Positions 47,343-61,006 of a stretch of DNA of 64,000 nucleotides are shown here, piece by piece. Positions within the stretch are counted from its first letter, which is position 1. Each line of letters starts with the position of its first letter. The notes under the pieces were generated by a model. It did no database searches, was not told the DNA's origin, and was given only the letters and a program-made list of their open reading frames with translations. The position numbers and the translations under genes were made by a program. The stretch comes from Cellulomonas sp. WB94 (GTDB taxonomy: Bacteria; Actinomycetota; Actinomycetes; Actinomycetales; Cellulomonadaceae), in the NCBI RefSeq assembly GCF_003115775.1, contig NZ_QEES01000002.1, positions 2,480,001 through 2,544,000 of the forward strand, written 5' to 3'.

Positions 47343-48395
47343 GTGAGTTCCCCTGACGAGCCGACCGTCGCCGACCTGTCCGAGGATGCCCTGCTCGCCC
47401 TGATCTTCCCGCAGCTGCCGCTCGGCGACGCCACGCTGGTCCCGCCCGGGGACGACGCCGCGGTCGTGGCCGCGCCGGACGGTCGCGTGGTCGTGTCGAC
47501 CGACGTGCTCGTCGAGGACCGACACTTCCGCCGGCGCTGGTCGACCGGCGAGGACGTCGGCCGGCGGGCGGCCGCTCAGAACCTGGCCGACATCGCGGCG
47601 ATGGGCGCGCGCCCGACGGCTCTCGTGGTGGCGTTCGTGGCACCGGCCGACCTGCCCGCGTCGTGGGTCGAAGGGCTTGCGCGGGGCCTCGCGGCCGTCT
47701 GCGCACCTCTCGGTGTCGGGGTCGTGGGTGGCGACCTGTCCTCCGGGCCGGTCGCGGTCGTCGCCGTGACGGTGCACGGCGACCTGGCCGGCCGAGAACC
47801 CGTGCTCCGGTCCGGCGCCCGGCCGGGCGACGTCGTCGCGCATGCGGGGGTGCGGGGGTGGTCCGCTGCGGGGCTGGCCCTGCTCGAGGCCGGGCGGGGC
47901 GACCTCGATGCCGGCCTCGTCGGCGCGTACCTGCGGCCCGAGCCACCGTTGGCGGCGGGGCCTCTCGCGGCGCGCGGCGGCGCCACCGCGATGCTCGACG
48001 TGTCCGACGGCCTGCTGCGCGACGCCGGCCGGATCGCGCGCGCGAGCGACGTCGTGCTCGACCTCGACGAACCGGCCGTGGCGTTCGCGGTCGACCTCGA
48101 GCGGCTGTCGGGCGCGGCTGGCGCGCTCGGGGCCGAGGCGCGCGACTGGGTCCTGACCGGGGGAGAGGATCACGGGCTGCTCGCGACCTTCCCCGCCGAT
48201 GCTCAGCTCCCGGAGCCGTTCCGCGTGGTGGGTCGGGTGCGCGCGGCTCCCGCGGACCACGGCACCGGGGCGCAGGTCACGCGGGTGCTCGTCGGGGGCG
48301 TCGACCCTGGACCGGGCTCACCGGGATGGGATCACTTCGCGCGGCAGGCCGCGTCGGGTCGGGCGGTGCCGGCTGCCGGTCAGCCGCGGCGGTAG
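47343..48395 (+). CDS. thiL: thiamine-monophosphate kinase
   Basis: 350 aa PurM-fold kinase converting thiamine phosphate to the diphosphate. N-terminal GDDAAVV ATP/Mg motif in PPGDDAAVVAAPDGRVVVSTDVLVEDRHF, then GRRAAAQNLADIAAMGARPTALVV, VGGDLSSGPVAVVAVTVHGDL, MLDVSDGLLRDAGRIA and VLTGGEDHGLLATF. The start GTG 47343 is supported by the hexamer and by loss of similarity upstream. The stop overlaps the convergent acetyltransferase gene by 16 bp. Confidence 0.94.
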   Translation: MSSPDEPTVADLSEDALLALIFPQLPLGDATLVPPGDDAAVVAAPDGRVVVSTDVLVEDRHFRRRWSTGEDVGRRAAAQNLADIAAMGARPTALVVAFVAPADLPASWVEGLARGLAAVCAPLGVGVVGGDLSSGPVAVVAVTVHGDLAGREPVLRSGARPGDVVAHAGVRGWSAAGLALLEAGRGDLDAGLVGAYLRPEPPLAAGPLAARGGATAMLDVSDGLLRDAGRIARASDVVLDLDEPAVAFAVDLERLSGAAGALGAEARDWVLTGGEDHGLLATFPADAQLPEPFRVVGRVRAAPADHGTGAQVTRVLVGGVDPGPGSPGWDHFARQAASGRAVPAAGQPRR

Positions 48396-48904
48396 CGCAC
48401 CTCGAGGAGCTCGGCGCCGCCGACGTCCTCGAAGCGCTCCGTGCCGTCGGCCTGGAAGCCGTTGCGGCGGTAGAAGTGGCGTGCCCGGTCGTTCGCCGCG
48501 AGCACCCACAGCGTCAGGGCCGACCGGCCGCCGACCTCGGTGATGACCGTCCGCAGCAGGTCGCGCGCGACGCCGTGCCCCCAGGCTCCGGGCTCGAGGT
48601 AGATCGAATAGATCTCGTGGTCGCCGCGGTTCGCGTCCTCGTCCCGGGCCGGTCCCAGCGTGACGAAGCCGAGCACGCCCGACGGCGACTCGGCCAGCCA
48701 GGTCCGGACGTGGTCGTGCGGACCGTTCCGCAGGAACTGCGTCCACTCGGCGGCGCGTGCCACCGGGTCGAGAGCTGCCAGGTGCTCGGCGGGGACGATG
48801 CCCTCGTACGCCTCCTGCCAGGAGTGCACGTGGACGCTCGCGATCGCCGCGGCGTCGGCCTCGGCAGCGGTGCGGATCGTCACTTCGTCGAGCTGTTCGA
48901 CCAT
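48380..48904 (-). CDS. GNAT-family N-acetyltransferase
   Basis: 174 aa single GNAT domain: TIRTAAEADAAAIASVHVHSWQEAYEGIVP, YSIYLEPGAWGHGVARDLLRTVI (acetyl-CoA loop) and WVLAANDRARHFYRRNGFQADGTERF at the end. Substrate unknown. ATG 48904 is chosen over 48946 because CATCGT lies 6 nt upstream and the fold begins there. Its 3' end overlaps thiL tail to tail. Confidence 0.85.
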   Translation of the reverse strand: MVEQLDEVTIRTAAEADAAAIASVHVHSWQEAYEGIVPAEHLAALDPVARAAEWTQFLRNGPHDHVRTWLAESPSGVLGFVTLGPARDEDANRGDHEIYSIYLEPGAWGHGVARDLLRTVITEVGGRSALTLWVLAANDRARHFYRRNGFQADGTERFEDVGGAELLEVRYRRG

Positions 48905-48933
48905 GCCCTCACGATGCCACACCGGGTGGGCAG

Positions 48934-48973
48934 CCCGAAGGCCCACGAGGAACGAACCTCGTGGGCCTTCGGG
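48934..48973. terminator. 17-bp perfect hairpin between rpmB and the acetyltransferase gene
   Basis: CCCGAAGGCCCACGAGG (48934-48950), loop AACGAA, CCTCGTGGGCCTTCGGG (48957-48973). It begins 19 bp past the rpmB stop on the minus strand. No T-run on either side, so it is a GC-type terminator or processing signal. Confidence 0.7.
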
Positions 48974-55757: not shown

Positions 55758-56317
55758 CCCGGATCGTCGCAGGCTCCGCCGGCGGCCGCACGCTCCAGGT
55801 CCCCCCGAAGGGGACTCGCCCGACGAGCGACCGCGTCCGCGAGGCGCTGTTCTCGCGGCTCGAGCACCTCGGCGCCGTCTCCCGTGCGCGCGTCCTCGAC
55901 CTGTACGCCGGGTCCGGTGCGCTGGGGCTCGAGGCTGCGAGCCGTGGTGCGGCGTCCGTCACGCTCGTCGAGTCGGCCCGGCTCGCGGCCGACGTGTGCC
56001 GACGCAACGTGGCGACCCTCGGGTTCGCCGGCACCGTGACGGTCGCCGTCGAACGCGTCGAGCGATTCGTCGCGCGCCCGGTTCTCGCGCCCTGGGACCT
56101 CGTGCTCGTCGATCCGCCGTACGACGTCCCGGACGACGAGCTCGCGGGGATGCTGGGCGACGTCGCCGGCGCGCTCGCGCCCGACGCGGTGCTCGTCGTC
56201 GAGCGCTCGACGCGCAGCCCCGAGCCGACCTGGCCCGCGGGCCTCGAACGCTTCGACGACCGGACCTACGGCGAGACGCGCGTGTGGTTCGCGCAGCCCG
56301 AGCGTGCCCTCGCGTAG
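55754..56317 (+). CDS. rsmD: 16S rRNA (guanine-966-N2)-methyltransferase
   Basis: 187 aa. MTRIVAGSAGGRTLQVPPKGTRPTSDRVREALFSRLEH is the RsmD N-terminus; motif I is VLDLYAGSGALGLEAASRGA and the catalytic motif DPPY is in LVLVDPPYDVPDD. It methylates G966 of 16S rRNA. ATG 55754 overlaps the preceding stop. Its TAG stop forms the first bases of the coaD -10 hexamer. Confidence 0.94.
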   Translation: MTRIVAGSAGGRTLQVPPKGTRPTSDRVREALFSRLEHLGAVSRARVLDLYAGSGALGLEAASRGAASVTLVESARLAADVCRRNVATLGFAGTVTVAVERVERFVARPVLAPWDLVLVDPPYDVPDDELAGMLGDVAGALAPDAVLVVERSTRSPEPTWPAGLERFDDRTYGETRVWFAQPERALA

Positions 56318-56320
56318 GTT
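56315..56320 (+). promoter_or_regulatory. -10 hexamer TAGGTT for leaderless coaD
   Basis: TAGGTT ends 6 nt before GTG 56327; its TAG is also the stop codon of rsmD. Confidence 0.6.
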
Positions 56321-56326
56321 GGCTGC

Positions 56327-56830
56327 GTGAGCACAGCCGTCTGCCCGGGGTCCTTCGACCCGATCACGCTCGGCCACATCGACATCGTGCGACGTGCCGC
56401 GTCGCTGTTCGACGAGGTCGTCGTCGGCGTCGCCCGGAACTCGTCCAAGGCGGCCCTCCTGGGCGTCGACGTCCGCGTCGAGCTGGCCCGCGCGGCGCTC
56501 GCGGACGTCCCCGGCGTCCGGGTCGAGCAGGTGACGGGTCTGCTCGCCGAGTTCGTCCGCTCGGTCGGCGCGGTGGCGATCGTCAAGGGGCTCCGCGGCG
56601 GCGCCGACTTCGATGCCGAGCTGCCGATGGCGCTCATGAACCGCCGCCTGACGGGCGTGGAGACGGTCTTCCTCGCCGGCGACCAGGCGCTCGCGCACAT
56701 CGCGTCGTCGCTGGTCAAGGACGTGGCGCGGTTCGGGGGCGACATCGATGATCTCGTCCCGCCCGGTGTCGGGCGGGTCGTGCGTGACGCGCTGGGCGCC
56801 AGCCCGGCCGGCGGAGGGAGCAGGGCATGA
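56327..56830 (+). CDS. coaD: phosphopantetheine adenylyltransferase
   Basis: 167 aa enzyme of coenzyme A synthesis. AVCPGSFDPITLGHIDIVRRAASLFD contains the T/HxGH nucleotidyl-transferase motif, and AIVKGLRGGADFDAELPMALMNRRLTGVETVFL, then ASSLVKDVARFGGDIDDLVP, complete the family. Start GTG 56327 fits the hexamer. The stop overlaps the next gene (ATGA). Confidence 0.96.
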   Translation: MSTAVCPGSFDPITLGHIDIVRRAASLFDEVVVGVARNSSKAALLGVDVRVELARAALADVPGVRVEQVTGLLAEFVRSVGAVAIVKGLRGGADFDAELPMALMNRRLTGVETVFLAGDQALAHIASSLVKDVARFGGDIDDLVPPGVGRVVRDALGASPAGGGSRA

Positions 56831-57339
56831 GCAACGACAGCTACAGCGACGACGACCTGGACCGGACGCGTCCGGAGGGCCTGACCGGCATCCTGGACGC
56901 GCTCTCGACCGCGATCTCGACGGCGCGTGCGATGCCGATGTCGTCCTCCGTCCTGGTCAACCGTGCGGAGATGCTCGACCTCGTCGACCAGGCGCGTGAC
57001 GCGCTGCCGACCCAGCTGGGCCGCGCCGACGAGCTGCTCGCGGACGCCGACTCGGCCCGCGCGGCCGCCCAGACGGAGGCCGAGGCCGTGCTCGCGCGCG
57101 CCCGCGAGCGCGCTTCGGAGCTCGTGGACACCGAGGCCGTCGTCGTCGCCGCGCGCGAGCGTGCCGCGGAGATCGTGCGCGAGGCCGAGGTGACCGCCGA
57201 GGGCCTGCGCCGCGACGCCGACGACTACTGCGACCGCCGCCTCGCCGACTTCGAGATCGACCTCGGCAAGCTGCTCAGCCAGGTGCAGGGCGGGCGGGCC
57301 AGGCTCGCCGACCGTCTCGGCGGTCCGGGCGAGGGCTGA
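56827..57339 (+). CDS. coiled-coil protein, DivIVA/ATP-synthase-b-like, unknown function
   Basis: 170 aa acidic, helical protein. After a short N-terminus (GILDALSTAISTARAMPMSSSVLVNRAEMLDLVDQARDALP) residues about 65-150 form a long coiled coil rich in Ala, Arg and Glu (ADSARAAAQTEAEAVLARARERASELVDTEA). The region AMPMSSSVLVNR is recurrent in actinobacterial genes at this locus. It resembles DivIVA-like scaffolds by composition only; function unknown. ATG 56827 overlaps the coaD stop, so it is cotranslated with coaD. Confidence 0.85.
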   Translation: MSNDSYSDDDLDRTRPEGLTGILDALSTAISTARAMPMSSSVLVNRAEMLDLVDQARDALPTQLGRADELLADADSARAAAQTEAEAVLARARERASELVDTEAVVVAARERAAEIVREAEVTAEGLRRDADDYCDRRLADFEIDLGKLLSQVQGGRARLADRLGGPGEG

Positions 57340-57388
57340 CGGATCGGCCGTCGTGTCGCGCCGTTTGGGCAGGTGGCCTCCAGTGCCG

Positions 57389-57394
57389 TAGGCT
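57389..57394 (+). promoter_or_regulatory. candidate -10 hexamer TAGGCT for the yceD-rpmF-rnc genes
   Basis: TAGGCT precedes the likely yceD start by about 60 nt, so this mRNA would have a 5' leader. No in-frame start lies at the usual 6-8 nt. Confidence 0.45.
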
Positions 57395-57453
57395 TGACCG
57401 TTGGTCCTGCCGGTCGTGGCGTGACCGAGAACCTGATGATGGGAACCTGGAAA

Positions 57454-58032
57454 GTGCAGCGCGCGCCTCACCTCGATCCCCGTTCGCCCCTCGTGCTCGA
57501 TACCCATGAGCTCGGTCGACGTCCGGGATCGATGCGGACGGTGCAGCGCACGGTCAAGGCTCCTGAGGATCTCGGTACCGTGGTGATCGGCGTCCCTCCC
57601 GGGACCGACCTGGAGCTGGATCTTCGGCTCGAGGCGGTCATGGAGGGTGTTCTGGTCTCCGGATCCGTCCGTGGCCGAGCAATCGGGGAGTGCATCCGCT
57701 GCCTGGACGAGACGGTCGAGGACCTCGACGTCACGATCCAGGAGCTGTACGTCTACCCTGAGCGCGCGGCTGTCGCGGTCGAGGACGGCGACGACGAAGA
57801 GGACGTGCGCAAGCTGGACGGCGACCTGGTCGACGTCGAGCCCGCGCTCCGGGACGCTGTGGTGACCGCGCTACCGTTCCAACCGCTGTGCCGGCCGGAC
57901 TGCCCGGGTCTGTGCTCCGAATGTGGAGCGCACCTCGCGGACGACCCCGACCATTCGCATGAGATCCTTGACCCTCGGTGGGCGGCCCTCGGTGGCCTGC
58001 AGAGCACGTACGACGAGACGAAAGAGAGCTAG
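57454..58032 (+). CDS. yceD: YceD/DUF177 family 23S rRNA accumulation protein
   Basis: 192 aa. HLDPRSPLVLDTHELGRRPGSMRTVQRTV opens the family; VSGSVRGRAIGECIRCLDETVEDLDVTIQELYVYP contains a CxxC, and CRPDCPGLCSECGAHLADDPDH gives the second zinc-type cysteine cluster near the end. YceD proteins are linked to 23S rRNA maturation and are nearly always next to rpmF, as here. The start is uncertain: GTG 57454 gives MQRAPHLDP, ATG 57439/57436 and GTG 57421 are also in frame. rpmF follows after 2 bp. Confidence 0.88.
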   Translation: MQRAPHLDPRSPLVLDTHELGRRPGSMRTVQRTVKAPEDLGTVVIGVPPGTDLELDLRLEAVMEGVLVSGSVRGRAIGECIRCLDETVEDLDVTIQELYVYPERAAVAVEDGDDEEDVRKLDGDLVDVEPALRDAVVTALPFQPLCRPDCPGLCSECGAHLADDPDHSHEILDPRWAALGGLQSTYDETKES

Positions 58033-58034
58033 CC

Positions 58035-58232
58035 GTGGCTGTTCCGAAGCGCAAGATGTCGCGCAGCAACACCCGTGCGCGTCGGTCGCAGTGGAAGACC
58101 ACTGCCACTGCGCTCACCACCTGCCCGCAGTGCAAGGCCAACAAGCAGCCGCACATGGCGTGCCCGACGTGCGGCGCGTACAACAACCGCCAGTACGCCG
58201 AGGCCGTGCGCACCGAGCACGAGGTCGGCTGA
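58035..58232 (+). CDS. rpmF: ribosomal protein bL32, zinc-binding form
   Basis: 65 aa. [53 protein letters not shown] has the L32 signature with two CxxC pairs forming the zinc site. GTG 58035 starts two bases after the yceD stop; GAGAG is the only Shine-Dalgarno candidate. rnc follows after 64 bp that hold a hairpin. Confidence 0.95.
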
Positions 58233-58262
58233 CGCTCAGCGCAGTGGCGATCGCGATCGTCG

Positions 58263-58301
58263 CTCATGCCCCGATCCCCTTCGGGGTGACCGGGGCATGA
58301 G
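58263..58301 (+). ncRNA. 5' hairpin A covering the rnc start codon
   Basis: CTCATGCCCCG (58263-58273) pairs perfectly with CGGGGCATGAG (58291-58301); inside, CCCC-TTC-GGGG forms a second helix. The rnc ATG at 58297 lies in the right arm, so the structure would hide the initiation region. It is a plausible double-stranded substrate for the encoded RNase III. Confidence 0.65.
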
Positions 58302-58989
58302 CATCGCGTCCGCTCAGCTTGTCGAGAAGCTCGGGATCCACCTGGATCCCGAGCTTCTCGTGCTGGCGCTCACGCATCGTTCGTTCGCGCACGAGGCCGG
58401 CGGCATCCCGACGAACGAGCGTCTCGAGTTCCTCGGGGACACGGTGCTCGGCCTGGCCGTGACCGAGGCGCTCTACCGCAACCACCCTGAGCTGCCCGAG
58501 GGTGAGCTCGCCAAGATGCGCGCCGCCACGGTGTCGCAGCGCGCGCTCGCCGCCGTGGCGCGCGACCTCGACCTGGGCTCGTACGTGCTGCTCGGCAAGG
58601 GCGAGCTGTCGACCGGTGGCCCGGACAAGGACTCGATCCTGTCCGACACGCTCGAGGCGCTGTTCGGCGCGGTCTACCTCGCCCACGGTCTCGAGCCCGC
58701 ACGTGAGCTCGTCATGGCGCTCGTCGGCCCTACCCTCGTGGCCGCGGCGGACCTCGGCGCGGGCCTCGACTGGAAGACGAGCCTCCAGGAGCTCTCGGCC
58801 GAGCTCGGTCTCGGTTCGCCGAGCTACGAGGTCGACGGCGTCGGACCCGACCACGCCCGCACGTTCACGGCTCGCGCCGTCGTCGGTGACGAGGTGCGCG
58901 GCAGCGGGACCGGCGCGGCCAAGAAGCTGGCCGAGCAGGAGGCCGCAGCGGACGCGTACCGGGCGTTGGACGCGCTCCGACCGTCCTGA
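58297..58989 (+). CDS. rnc: ribonuclease III
   Basis: 230 aa dsRNA-specific endonuclease for rRNA and mRNA processing. The signature [21 protein letters not shown] carries the catalytic Glu/Asp residues, and [15 protein letters not shown] the second metal-binding Asp-Glu pair. The C-terminal double-stranded RNA-binding domain ([16 protein letters not shown] ... [19 protein letters not shown]) is complete. ATG 58297 lies in hairpin A and codons 10-22 form hairpin B. Gene order yceD-rpmF-rnc-mutM is conserved in actinomycetes. Confidence 0.95.
58323..58360 (+). ncRNA. hairpin B, 17-bp perfect stem inside the rnc coding region
   Basis: CGAGAAGCTCGGGATCC (58323-58339), loop ACCT, GGATCCCGAGCTTCTCG (58344-58360). 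It is an uninterrupted 17-bp duplex 26 nt after the start codon, while also encoding [12 protein letters not shown]. Confidence 0.75.
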
Positions 58990-59028
58990 GCCTCAGCAGC
59001 CTGAGTGATCGCATGAGCGTGCCGCGCC

Positions 59029-59955
59029 GTGCCTGAGCTGCCCGAGGTCGAGACCGTCCGCGACGGGCTCGCACGCCACGTCCTGGACCGCACCGTGACC
59101 GCCGTCGACGTCCGGCGCGACTACAGCGTGCGACGCCACGAGGGCGGCCCGCTCGACTTCGCCGGTCGCCTGACCGGGCGGCGCCTGGCGGCAGCCGTCC
59201 GCCGCGGCAAGTTCCTGTGGCTTCCGCTCGACCCGGTCGTGGGCTCCGAGCCCGACGACGCGCTCATGGCGCACCTCGGGATGAGCGGTCAGCTGCTCGT
59301 GCGGACGACCCCGGACGAGGTGGCGGCCGGCGGGTCCCACCCGCACCTGCGGGTGCGTCTCGAGCTCACGGGCGGTGCCGCGCTGGACTTCGTGGACCAG
59401 CGCACCTTCGGGCACCTGTCGGTCACGGACCTCGAGCCGACGCCCGACGGGGCACCGGGCGGCGCCGGATCACCGCTCGCAGCCGTCCCCGGTCCCGTGG
59501 CCCACATCGCCCGCGACCTGCTCGACCCCGCGCTCGACCGCCGGGCGCTCGTGGCGGCGGTCCGCTCGCGCCGGACGGGTCTCAAGCGGGCCCTGCTCGA
59601 CCAGACGCTCGTGTCGGGGATCGGCAACATCTACGCCGACGAGACGCTGTGGCGCGCGCGCCTGCACTACGCGCGCCCGACGGACACGCTGCGCCGCACC
59701 GAGGTCGAGCGCGCGCTCGACGCCGCCGCCGAGGTGATGGCCGAGGCGCTCGCTCAGGGCGGCACGAGCTTCGACGCGCTGTACGTCAACGTCAACGGCC
59801 AGTCCGGGTACTTCGACCGGTCCCTGGCCGTCTACGGGCGTGCGGGCGAGCCCTGCCGGCGCTGCGGCGCGCCGGTGCGCCGCGACGAGTTCATGAACCG
59901 CTCGTCGTTCACGTGCCCGGTGTGCCAGCCGCGCCCGCGACACGGGCGCTGGTGA
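59029..59955 (+). CDS. mutM: formamidopyrimidine-DNA glycosylase
   Basis: 308 aa base-excision enzyme for 8-oxoguanine and formamidopyrimidines. The mature N-terminus [13 protein letters not shown] provides catalytic P2 and E3; [10 protein letters not shown] holds the conserved lysine (K61). [32 protein letters not shown] (helix-two-turn-helix) and the zinc finger [24 protein letters not shown] follow. GTG 59029 gives the required MPELPE start. Convergent with the dehydrogenase gene. Confidence 0.95.
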
Positions 59956-59981
59956 CCGCAGCGACCGGCGAGGGACCGGTC

Positions 59982-60926
59982 TCAGTGCTCGACGACGTTC
60001 CGCAGCGGGCGCCCGCCCTCGAACGCCGCCAGGTTGTGTGCGATCAGCTCTGATGCACCCTGCGGTCGACCACCCGCCGCGTGGGGGCTGATCAGGATGC
60101 GCGGGGAGTCCCACAGCGGCGAGTCGGCCGGGAGCGGCTCGGTCTCGAACACGTCGAGCGCCGCACCCGCGAGTTGCTCGGAGCGCAGGGCCTCGAGCAG
60201 GGCGTCCTCGTCGAGCGTCGACCCGCGCCCGACGTTGACGACCCACGCGCTCGGCGGCAGGAGACCGAGCACGTGCGTGCCGATCGCGTGGTGGGTCTCG
60301 GGCGTCGCCGGGAGCAGACCGATGAGGACGTCGGTGGTGGGGAGCTCGGCGGGGACGTCGGCGGTGGCCACGACGCGGACGCCGGCGCGCTCACCGGCCG
60401 TCCGGGCGACGCCGGTCACGCGTGCGCCGAGCGAGGTGAGCACCGGTGCGAGCCGTGCCGCGATCGAGCCGAAGCCCCAGATCAGGACGCGGGCGCCGTC
60501 CAGCGTGCGGAACGAGCCCGGCGGGTCGAGCTGCTGCGCGCCGCCGAGCTCGCGGGCCCACCGGTGGTCGTGCTGGGCCCGCACGAGGTCCGGGACGCGC
60601 CGGGCGGCAGCCAGCACGAGCGCGAGCGCGTGCTCGGCGACGGGTCCGTCGTGCAGACCGCGGCCGTTCGTGACCACGACGTGGGATCCGAAGCCGGCAT
60701 CGAGGACCGCGTCGGGCCCGGCCGCGAGCGTCTGGACCCAGCGCAGCCGGGTCAGTCGGCGTGCGCTGTCGGCGAGCTGGCCGGGCGTGTTCATCCACAC
60801 CACCAGCACGTCCGCGTCGGTGTGCTCGGCGGGAATGGGTGCTCGGACGTCGTAGCGGACGGCCCGCACACCCTCGGGGAGCGCAGGGTCGAGCTCGATG
60901 CCGAGGGGCAGCAGCACGGTCGTCAC
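59982..60926 (-). CDS. D-2-hydroxyacid dehydrogenase (NAD-dependent)
   Basis: 314 aa. The catalytic domain includes RWVQTLAAGPDAVLDAGF and VTNGRGLHDGPVAEHALALVLAAARR. The Rossmann motif is VLIWGFGSIAARLAPVLTSLGARVTGVART; VVNVGRGSTLDEDALLEAL, ALDVFETEPLPADSPLWDSPRILISPHAAG contains the catalytic Glu and His. Substrate unassigned (glyoxylate/hydroxypyruvate-like group). The usual GxGxxG is GFGSIA. GTG 60926 is preferred (GGAGGA upstream); an open frame to 61025 is not protein-like. Divergent from the response regulator. Confidence 0.9.
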   Translation of the reverse strand: MTTVLLPLGIELDPALPEGVRAVRYDVRAPIPAEHTDADVLVVWMNTPGQLADSARRLTRLRWVQTLAAGPDAVLDAGFGSHVVVTNGRGLHDGPVAEHALALVLAAARRVPDLVRAQHDHRWARELGGAQQLDPPGSFRTLDGARVLIWGFGSIAARLAPVLTSLGARVTGVARTAGERAGVRVVATADVPAELPTTDVLIGLLPATPETHHAIGTHVLGLLPPSAWVVNVGRGSTLDEDALLEALRSEQLAGAALDVFETEPLPADSPLWDSPRILISPHAAGGRPQGASELIAHNLAAFEGGRPLRNVVEH

Positions 60927-61006
60927 AGGTCGTCCTCCAGATAGGTCGCAGACGGGACAGCGCGTCCGGCGGGAGAGTCGGTGTCGGGTATCGGGCGCGC
61001 TCTGGA

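Follow-up and report, generated by a model that had tools for sequence, protein, structure and literature searches.

In Escherichia coli, RNase III cleaves the transcript of its own operon near the 5' end, at the site known as rncO. This site is described as a 5' terminal stem-loop (PMC3386247). In Staphylococcus aureus, the enzyme is reported to autoregulate via a hairpin in its own coding sequence (hairpin III), where cutting by the enzyme lowers the level of its own mRNA, and this structured site is described as conserved among staphylococci (PMC3386247). According to a review, the RNase III of Streptomyces coelicolor cleaves a stem-loop inside the rnc cistron and another upstream of it, and both cuts are placed in loops rather than in stems (PMC10126417). 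In Streptomyces venezuelae, the 3' half of the rnc RNA is reported to rise when RNase J is missing, which the authors of that work link to internal cutting by RNase III (PMC12096830). The kind of mechanism discussed below is therefore already known from Streptomyces and Staphylococcus; a conserved palindrome of codons, in the reading frame of rnc, would on sequence evidence be new as a variant of it. No description of a conserved in-frame hairpin in rnc was found in the open-licence literature that was searched.

The locus considered here lies in a window of 64,000 nucleotides (i.e., the whole stretch of Cellulomonas sp. WB94 DNA that was analyzed), where the gene order is yceD - rpmF - rnc - fpg. 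The yceD-like gene (57415..58032, + strand; PF02620) is followed by a gene for a protein of 65 aa (58035..58232, + strand), which lies directly 5' of rnc and which we take, from its sequence and from the gene order, to be rpmF-like, encoding ribosomal protein L32. The rnc gene itself (58297..58989, + strand) encodes an RNase III of 230 aa with an RNase III domain and a dsRNA-binding motif (Pfam PF14622, PF00636, and PF00035). This layout resembles that of absB (rnc) in S. coelicolor, which is likewise described as lying downstream of the L32 gene and as having a stem-loop within the rnc cistron (PMC10126417, PMC3386247, PMC5775266).

Two hairpins are predicted around the start of rnc, which we will call hairpin 1 (over the start site) and hairpin 2 (within the coding sequence). 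The 171-nt region around both of them folds at -103.7 kcal/mol (z -8.0), and none of 200 shuffles was equally stable. A search with the curated covariance models of Rfam returned no match at E <= 1 in positions 56000-61000 of the window, nor in nine related loci. We also considered an intrinsic terminator and rejected it, as the region 57900-58700 holds no terminator-like site, that is, a G+C-rich stem followed by a T run.

The first-pass annotation had reported a 17-bp uninterrupted duplex with the loop ACCT in the rnc coding sequence, and this duplex is present. Hairpin 2 (58323..58360, + strand) has its arms at 58323-58339 and 58344-58360, which form 17 perfect pairs around the loop at 58340-58343. 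It takes in the last base of codon 9, all of codons 10-21, and the first base of codon 22, and in the source genome the duplex starts 26 nt past the A of the ATG. Codons 10 and 21, 11 and 20, 12 and 19, 13 and 18, and 14 and 17 are reverse complements of each other in frame; the mRNA can thus form a 17-bp GC-rich duplex while being read as protein.

That such a stem is improbable by chance had also been claimed, and here the nulls agree. With the protein held fixed and codons drawn at the usage of a 464-kb sample of the same genome, made up of the window and 400 kb more, none of 5000 synonymous recodings was as stable as hairpin 2 (z -4.4), the longest perfect stem among them was 12 bp, and the probability of obtaining exactly this stem given the protein was 4e-6. 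When the rnc of the source genome was scanned along its length, only windows holding much of codons 9-22 stood out. In 20 first-order Markov sequences of the size of the window, counting perfect hairpins of at least 10 bp with a loop of 3-10, the longest was 10-13 bp in 18 sequences and 16 bp in one, and one sequence had none; the window, in contrast, has two perfect hairpins of 17 bp. The other of these two (48934-48973, loop 6) has no T run after it, overlaps the first 13 nt of a minus-strand ORF (48380-48946), and is probably intergenic.

The 464-kb sample holds 12 perfect stems of at least 15 bp, of which only the one in rnc lies wholly in a convincing gene, while eight lie clear of every called ORF and three run partly into one. 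This tally (1, 8, and 3) should be read as the product of crude gene calling; a strict filter, under which 306,942 of 464,000 bases were coding, missed rnc, and a looser filter was then used. Perfect stems of 13 bp occur within two other ORFs of the sample.

For comparison within the family of the source genome, we used 118 rnc genes, taken from 199 genomes with a match and chosen by score and genus rather than at random. Rows left out ahead of any counting were L031 and L032 (self matches), L143 (a 10-base stretch), L202 (too short), and those in which the anchor motif was missing (L119, L226, L231, L232, L261, and L274). With G-U allowed, 113 of the 118 genes retain 13 pairs or more out of 17; by Watson-Crick pairing alone, 111 do. 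All 17 pairs are kept in 84 genes, 62 of which are Watson-Crick throughout, and fewer than 13 pairs are left in five (L147, L156, L165, L179, and L192).

The recoding fold test, run with L092 (too short in one of the other sets) and without L013 and L062 (which contain N), was applied to 117 family genes. The z value was -2.5 or lower in 94 genes and -2 or lower in 103, with a median of -3.3; the weak members number 23 above -2.5 and 14 above -2 (e.g., L051, z -0.7). Over 30 family loci, the mean z was -3.7 for the window that begins at codon 1, -4.1 for that at codon 7, and -2.7 for that at codon 13, so that the peak window is that of codons 7-28, and the 29 windows from codon 19 onward lie between -0.99 and +0.51. 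Codon choice can be followed at Leu20, for which 91 of the 117 genes use the rare CTT, versus 57 of 2254 Leu codons past codon 23 in the same genes; in the own-genome sample, CTT makes up 1.3% of 10,442 Leu codons.

Some caution is needed with the position of the stem relative to the start. A start codon with an SD-like candidate was found in only 34 of the 113 hairpin-positive family genes (and in 2 of 23 genes from families f6, f7, and f19, see below), and 20 of those 34 have 27 nt from the start to codon 10; a fixed start-to-stem distance therefore applies to a minority of genes. Many rnc starts in the family may be without an SD-like motif. The genes in which the stem is weak or lost (L051, L147, L156, L165, and L179), all of them from the same family, offer natural comparisons for anyone studying the regulation of rnc.

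The two arms of hairpin 2 change together. Codons 11 and 20 occur in the family as K11 AAG with L20 CTT and as Q11 CAG with L20 CTG, and a change of Lys11 (AAG) to Gln (CAG) is mostly accompanied by a change of Leu20 to CTG. An A as the first base of codon 11 goes with a T as the last base of codon 20 in 89 of 92 cases, and a C with a G in 18 of 20. Among 76 distinct family sequences, pairing is intact in 93.5% of cells. Both partners have changed in 40 cells, compared with 8.3 expected from shuffling (no shuffle out of 500 reaches the observed value) and with 8-18 when the register is displaced by 1-3. The number of pairs that show any such double change (6 versus 4.1, with 23 of 500 shuffles reaching 6) is only moderate evidence, and one should keep in mind that the relatedness of the sequences inflates pair-count covariation tests of this sort.

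Double changes were also placed on trees by parsimony. A family-only tree, built from codons 23-85, gave 19 double changes in the register of hairpin 2 versus 0-8 in 18 slid registers, and adding every gene sampled from f6, f7, and f19 (144 loci in total) gave 54 versus 0-20 in 18 other registers, though trees so short make these event counts approximate. Two further counts, 53 versus 2-18 (the 118 family loci mixed with 19 loci of other families, partly picked for their hairpins) and 47 versus 1-15 (hairpin-positive rows only), come from mixed or selected sets, and for this reason we use the unselected counts of 19 and 54 instead. Departures to G-U exceed those to A-C by 31 to 25 events overall, and by 20 to 13 events, or 53 to 16 cells, among hairpin-positive rows, an asymmetry that weakly favors the sense RNA. 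RNAalifold run over all 76 rows kept only eight inner pairs; we think that this short consensus is due to the rows without the hairpin among the 76.

Beyond the family, the register is shared by two other families of the same order, f6 and f7, where all sampled genes (11 of 11 and 9 of 9, respectively) retain 13 or more of the 17 pairs, as do 3 of 6 sampled genes from f19. The stems of these families use other residues, including R11 CGT with T20 ACG, S11 AGT with T20 ACT, and K10 AAG with L21 CTT, and the stem can be found rebuilt with a different set of amino acids, for example, KRLG...TGTL in place of EKLG...DPELL. At the level of sequence, these comparisons show the duplex of hairpin 2 to be under selection beyond that on the protein, to be held in one register in the family and in two other families, and to be restored by paired changes of codon and amino acid. 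Hairpin 2 has the stable stem and the conservation beyond protein constraint that one would expect of an RNase III autoregulatory site in the rnc coding sequence of the S. coelicolor and S. aureus kind.

Among 20 genes of these other families, z was -2.5 or lower in 17. A broader sample of order and class, hand-picked and mostly of one or two loci per family (60 loci fetched, five of them without the anchor, and 55 analyzed), reached this value at 8 of 55 loci, five from f6, f7, and f19 and three of Streptomyces type; the element is thus not general in the class. Across the same codons, the nine Streptomyces-type loci (one of which is Yinghuangia) have a differently registered hairpin of ~19 bp with a 1-nt bulge, and they hold just 8-10 of the 17 pairs of the hairpin 2 register. 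This hairpin is the strongest segment along the gene in the five loci that were scanned (mean z -3.3; the next is -2.6, near codon 37). Values of -2.8 or lower at these codons were obtained for 3 of 7 Demequina, 2 of 2 Enemella, and 1 of 4 Nocardioides loci, and no locus of Mycobacterium (three), Actinomyces (seven), or Kribbella (three) came as low. In Demequina, L094, L096, and L097 have a strong stem over codons 9-22 (z -4.3 to -4.7) and the other four loci have none; read by eye, this stem has a shifted register and a bulged U, and it uses the codons AGG and TTG, which are rare in the source genome.

Hairpin 1 behaves differently among the relatives. A perfect inverted repeat of 11 bp containing the rnc ATG had been noted at 58263-58301; it exists, and the predicted fold gives one pair more, that is, a 12-bp stem with a small apical helix (58262..58302, + strand; arms 58262-58273 and 58291-58302). 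Between its arms lies the SD-like GGGGTGA (58283-58289), and the ATG (58297-58299) sits in its 3' arm. In the predicted minimum-energy fold, six further pairs (58252-58257 with 58303-58308) lie beyond a 4-nt bulge, extending the structure to 58252..58308 (+ strand). Hairpin 1 could hide the ribosome site. Its z value is -5.0 in the source genome; in the nearest relative, whose pairing is offset by one base, it is -1.5, and the median over the 118 family loci, the source included, is -0.4.

We therefore rejected hairpin 1 as a conserved leader operator: a conserved stem in the 5' leader, of the kind expected from rncO, does not appear across those 118 loci. An apparent compensatory change between the source and its nearest relative was discounted, because the two helices, read by eye, are one base out of step. 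The 5' region matched at full length in only two of seven genus genomes (the source and the nearest relative), and a third had only a 27-nt match elsewhere. Judged from these comparisons, hairpin 1 is a lineage-specific structure of the source species, outside the conserved element. Conservation and covariation in relatives, which the first-pass annotation had named as the check on both stems, are accordingly seen for hairpin 2 and missing for hairpin 1. As to the sequence around it, GGCGATCGCGATCGTCGC, which stands 5' of rnc at 58246-58263, has 14 matches in the window with at most three mismatches (its own site and the reverse strand included), where 1.5 are expected. Pieces of the rnc 5' region also match elsewhere in two genomes of the same genus.

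We propose that hairpin 2 is a functional RNA element in the rnc frame which is cut by RNase III to limit its own synthesis, and we would put the probability of this reading at about 0.74. We infer the cutting because the gene encodes a dsRNA nuclease, no other gene in the genome sample holds such a stem, and the mechanism exists elsewhere. RNase III in excess would bind the duplex in its own message and cut it; the cut would part the ribosome binding site and the first codons from the remainder of rnc, and less RNase III would be made from a message cut in this way. Ribosomes engaged in translation would melt the duplex, competing with the cutting. The earlier suggestion of an autoregulatory element made up of both hairpins is thereby narrowed: it is kept, as a probable reading, for hairpin 2, the conserved element in 113 of 118 family genes, and finds no comparative support for hairpin 1.

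Several other explanations deserve attention. A skeptical reader might regard the stem as a coincidence, arising without selection from the protein motif EKLG...DPELL and GC-rich codon usage, and the first and second codon positions of this motif are indeed naturally complementary. The synonymous nulls, the rare CTT codon, the family double changes (19 versus 0-8), and the stems rebuilt from other amino acids in other families refute this idea, whose chance of being right we regard as negligible. It is, in our judgment, very improbable that the palindrome works outside the sense mRNA, whether as DNA (a protein-binding site or a cruciform) or via an antisense RNA. A perfect palindrome can serve on either strand, an as-rnc RNA has been reported in Streptomyces (PMC5775266), and the asymmetry between G-U and A-C is weak, but this asymmetry runs toward G-U among hairpin-positive rows, and codons 11 and 20 vary freely with their pairing kept (AAG/CTT, CAG/CTG, CGT/ACG, AGT/ACT, and GAG/CTC). 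A sequence that is free to change while its pairing stays is a poor fit for a sequence-specific binding site, which makes a role as DNA or through antisense RNA less likely.

The conserved hairpin may also act directly on translation or folding, for example, by slowing early elongation or by ordering ribosome traffic after initiation, without being cut by RNase III. This we consider unlikely, even though the stem lies just past the start, at the 27-nt distance in 20 of the 34 genes mentioned earlier. A generic role in elongation would be expected in other genes too, and the fact that rnc alone in 464 kb holds a stem of at least 15 bp wholly inside (subject to the crude gene calling) counts against it, as does the identity of the gene, which encodes the very enzyme that cuts such stems. 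It is quite unlikely, finally, that hairpins 1 and 2 form one operator in two parts, in which the ribosome site stays hidden in hairpin 1 until that hairpin is opened or destroyed by RNase III. The two stems do fold together, hairpin 1 lies over the SD-like motif and ATG with a strong z of its own in the source genome, and S. coelicolor is described as having one cut upstream of rnc and one inside (PMC10126417); against this, hairpin 1 is absent or shifted in register in the relatives.

Read as an autoregulatory site, hairpin 2 can be set beside the described systems. It differs from rncO of E. coli, which lies in the leader, in that the conserved stem is inside the coding sequence. It resembles hairpin III of S. 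aureus in being a structured site within the rnc coding sequence, yet the S. aureus cut is placed at U+296 in a long irregular helix (PMC3386247), whereas the stem of hairpin 2 is perfect over 17 bp and lies at +27 to +64. In position it is like the ~19-bp hairpin of the Streptomyces-type loci, which covers the same codons but has another register and a 1-nt bulge where hairpin 2, a putative cleavage site, is perfect. That this ~19-bp hairpin is the site cut within the Streptomyces cistron would be a guess. The placing of both S. coelicolor cuts in loops (PMC10126417) counts against a likeness to hairpin 2 in the cutting of a stem.

As for its history, we lean toward the reading that several families of the order have preserved the codon palindrome in a single register since they diverged, that it steers the evolution of the RNase III protein, and that the similar hairpins of Streptomyces, some Demequina, and others are the same site re-registered or re-invented. 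If so, residues 10, 11, and 13 would co-vary with residues 18, 20, and 21 because their codons must pair; the residue pairs observed at 11 and 20 are K-L, Q-L, E-L, R-T, and S-T. The residues of the palindrome presumably lie in the N-terminal helix alpha-1 of RNase III.

Hairpin 2 thus offers a precise candidate for the site of RNase III autoregulation in several actinobacterial families, and one that comes from comparative evidence rather than from a single transcript map. The comparison also suggests that the cut inside the rnc of Streptomyces may represent one form of a more widespread element. Here an RNA structure and a segment of protein appear to share the same bases in a clean natural case, with paired codons moving jointly through changes of amino acid; if the proposed reading is true, the substrate that RNase III carries in its own message constrains the amino acid sequence of RNase III itself.
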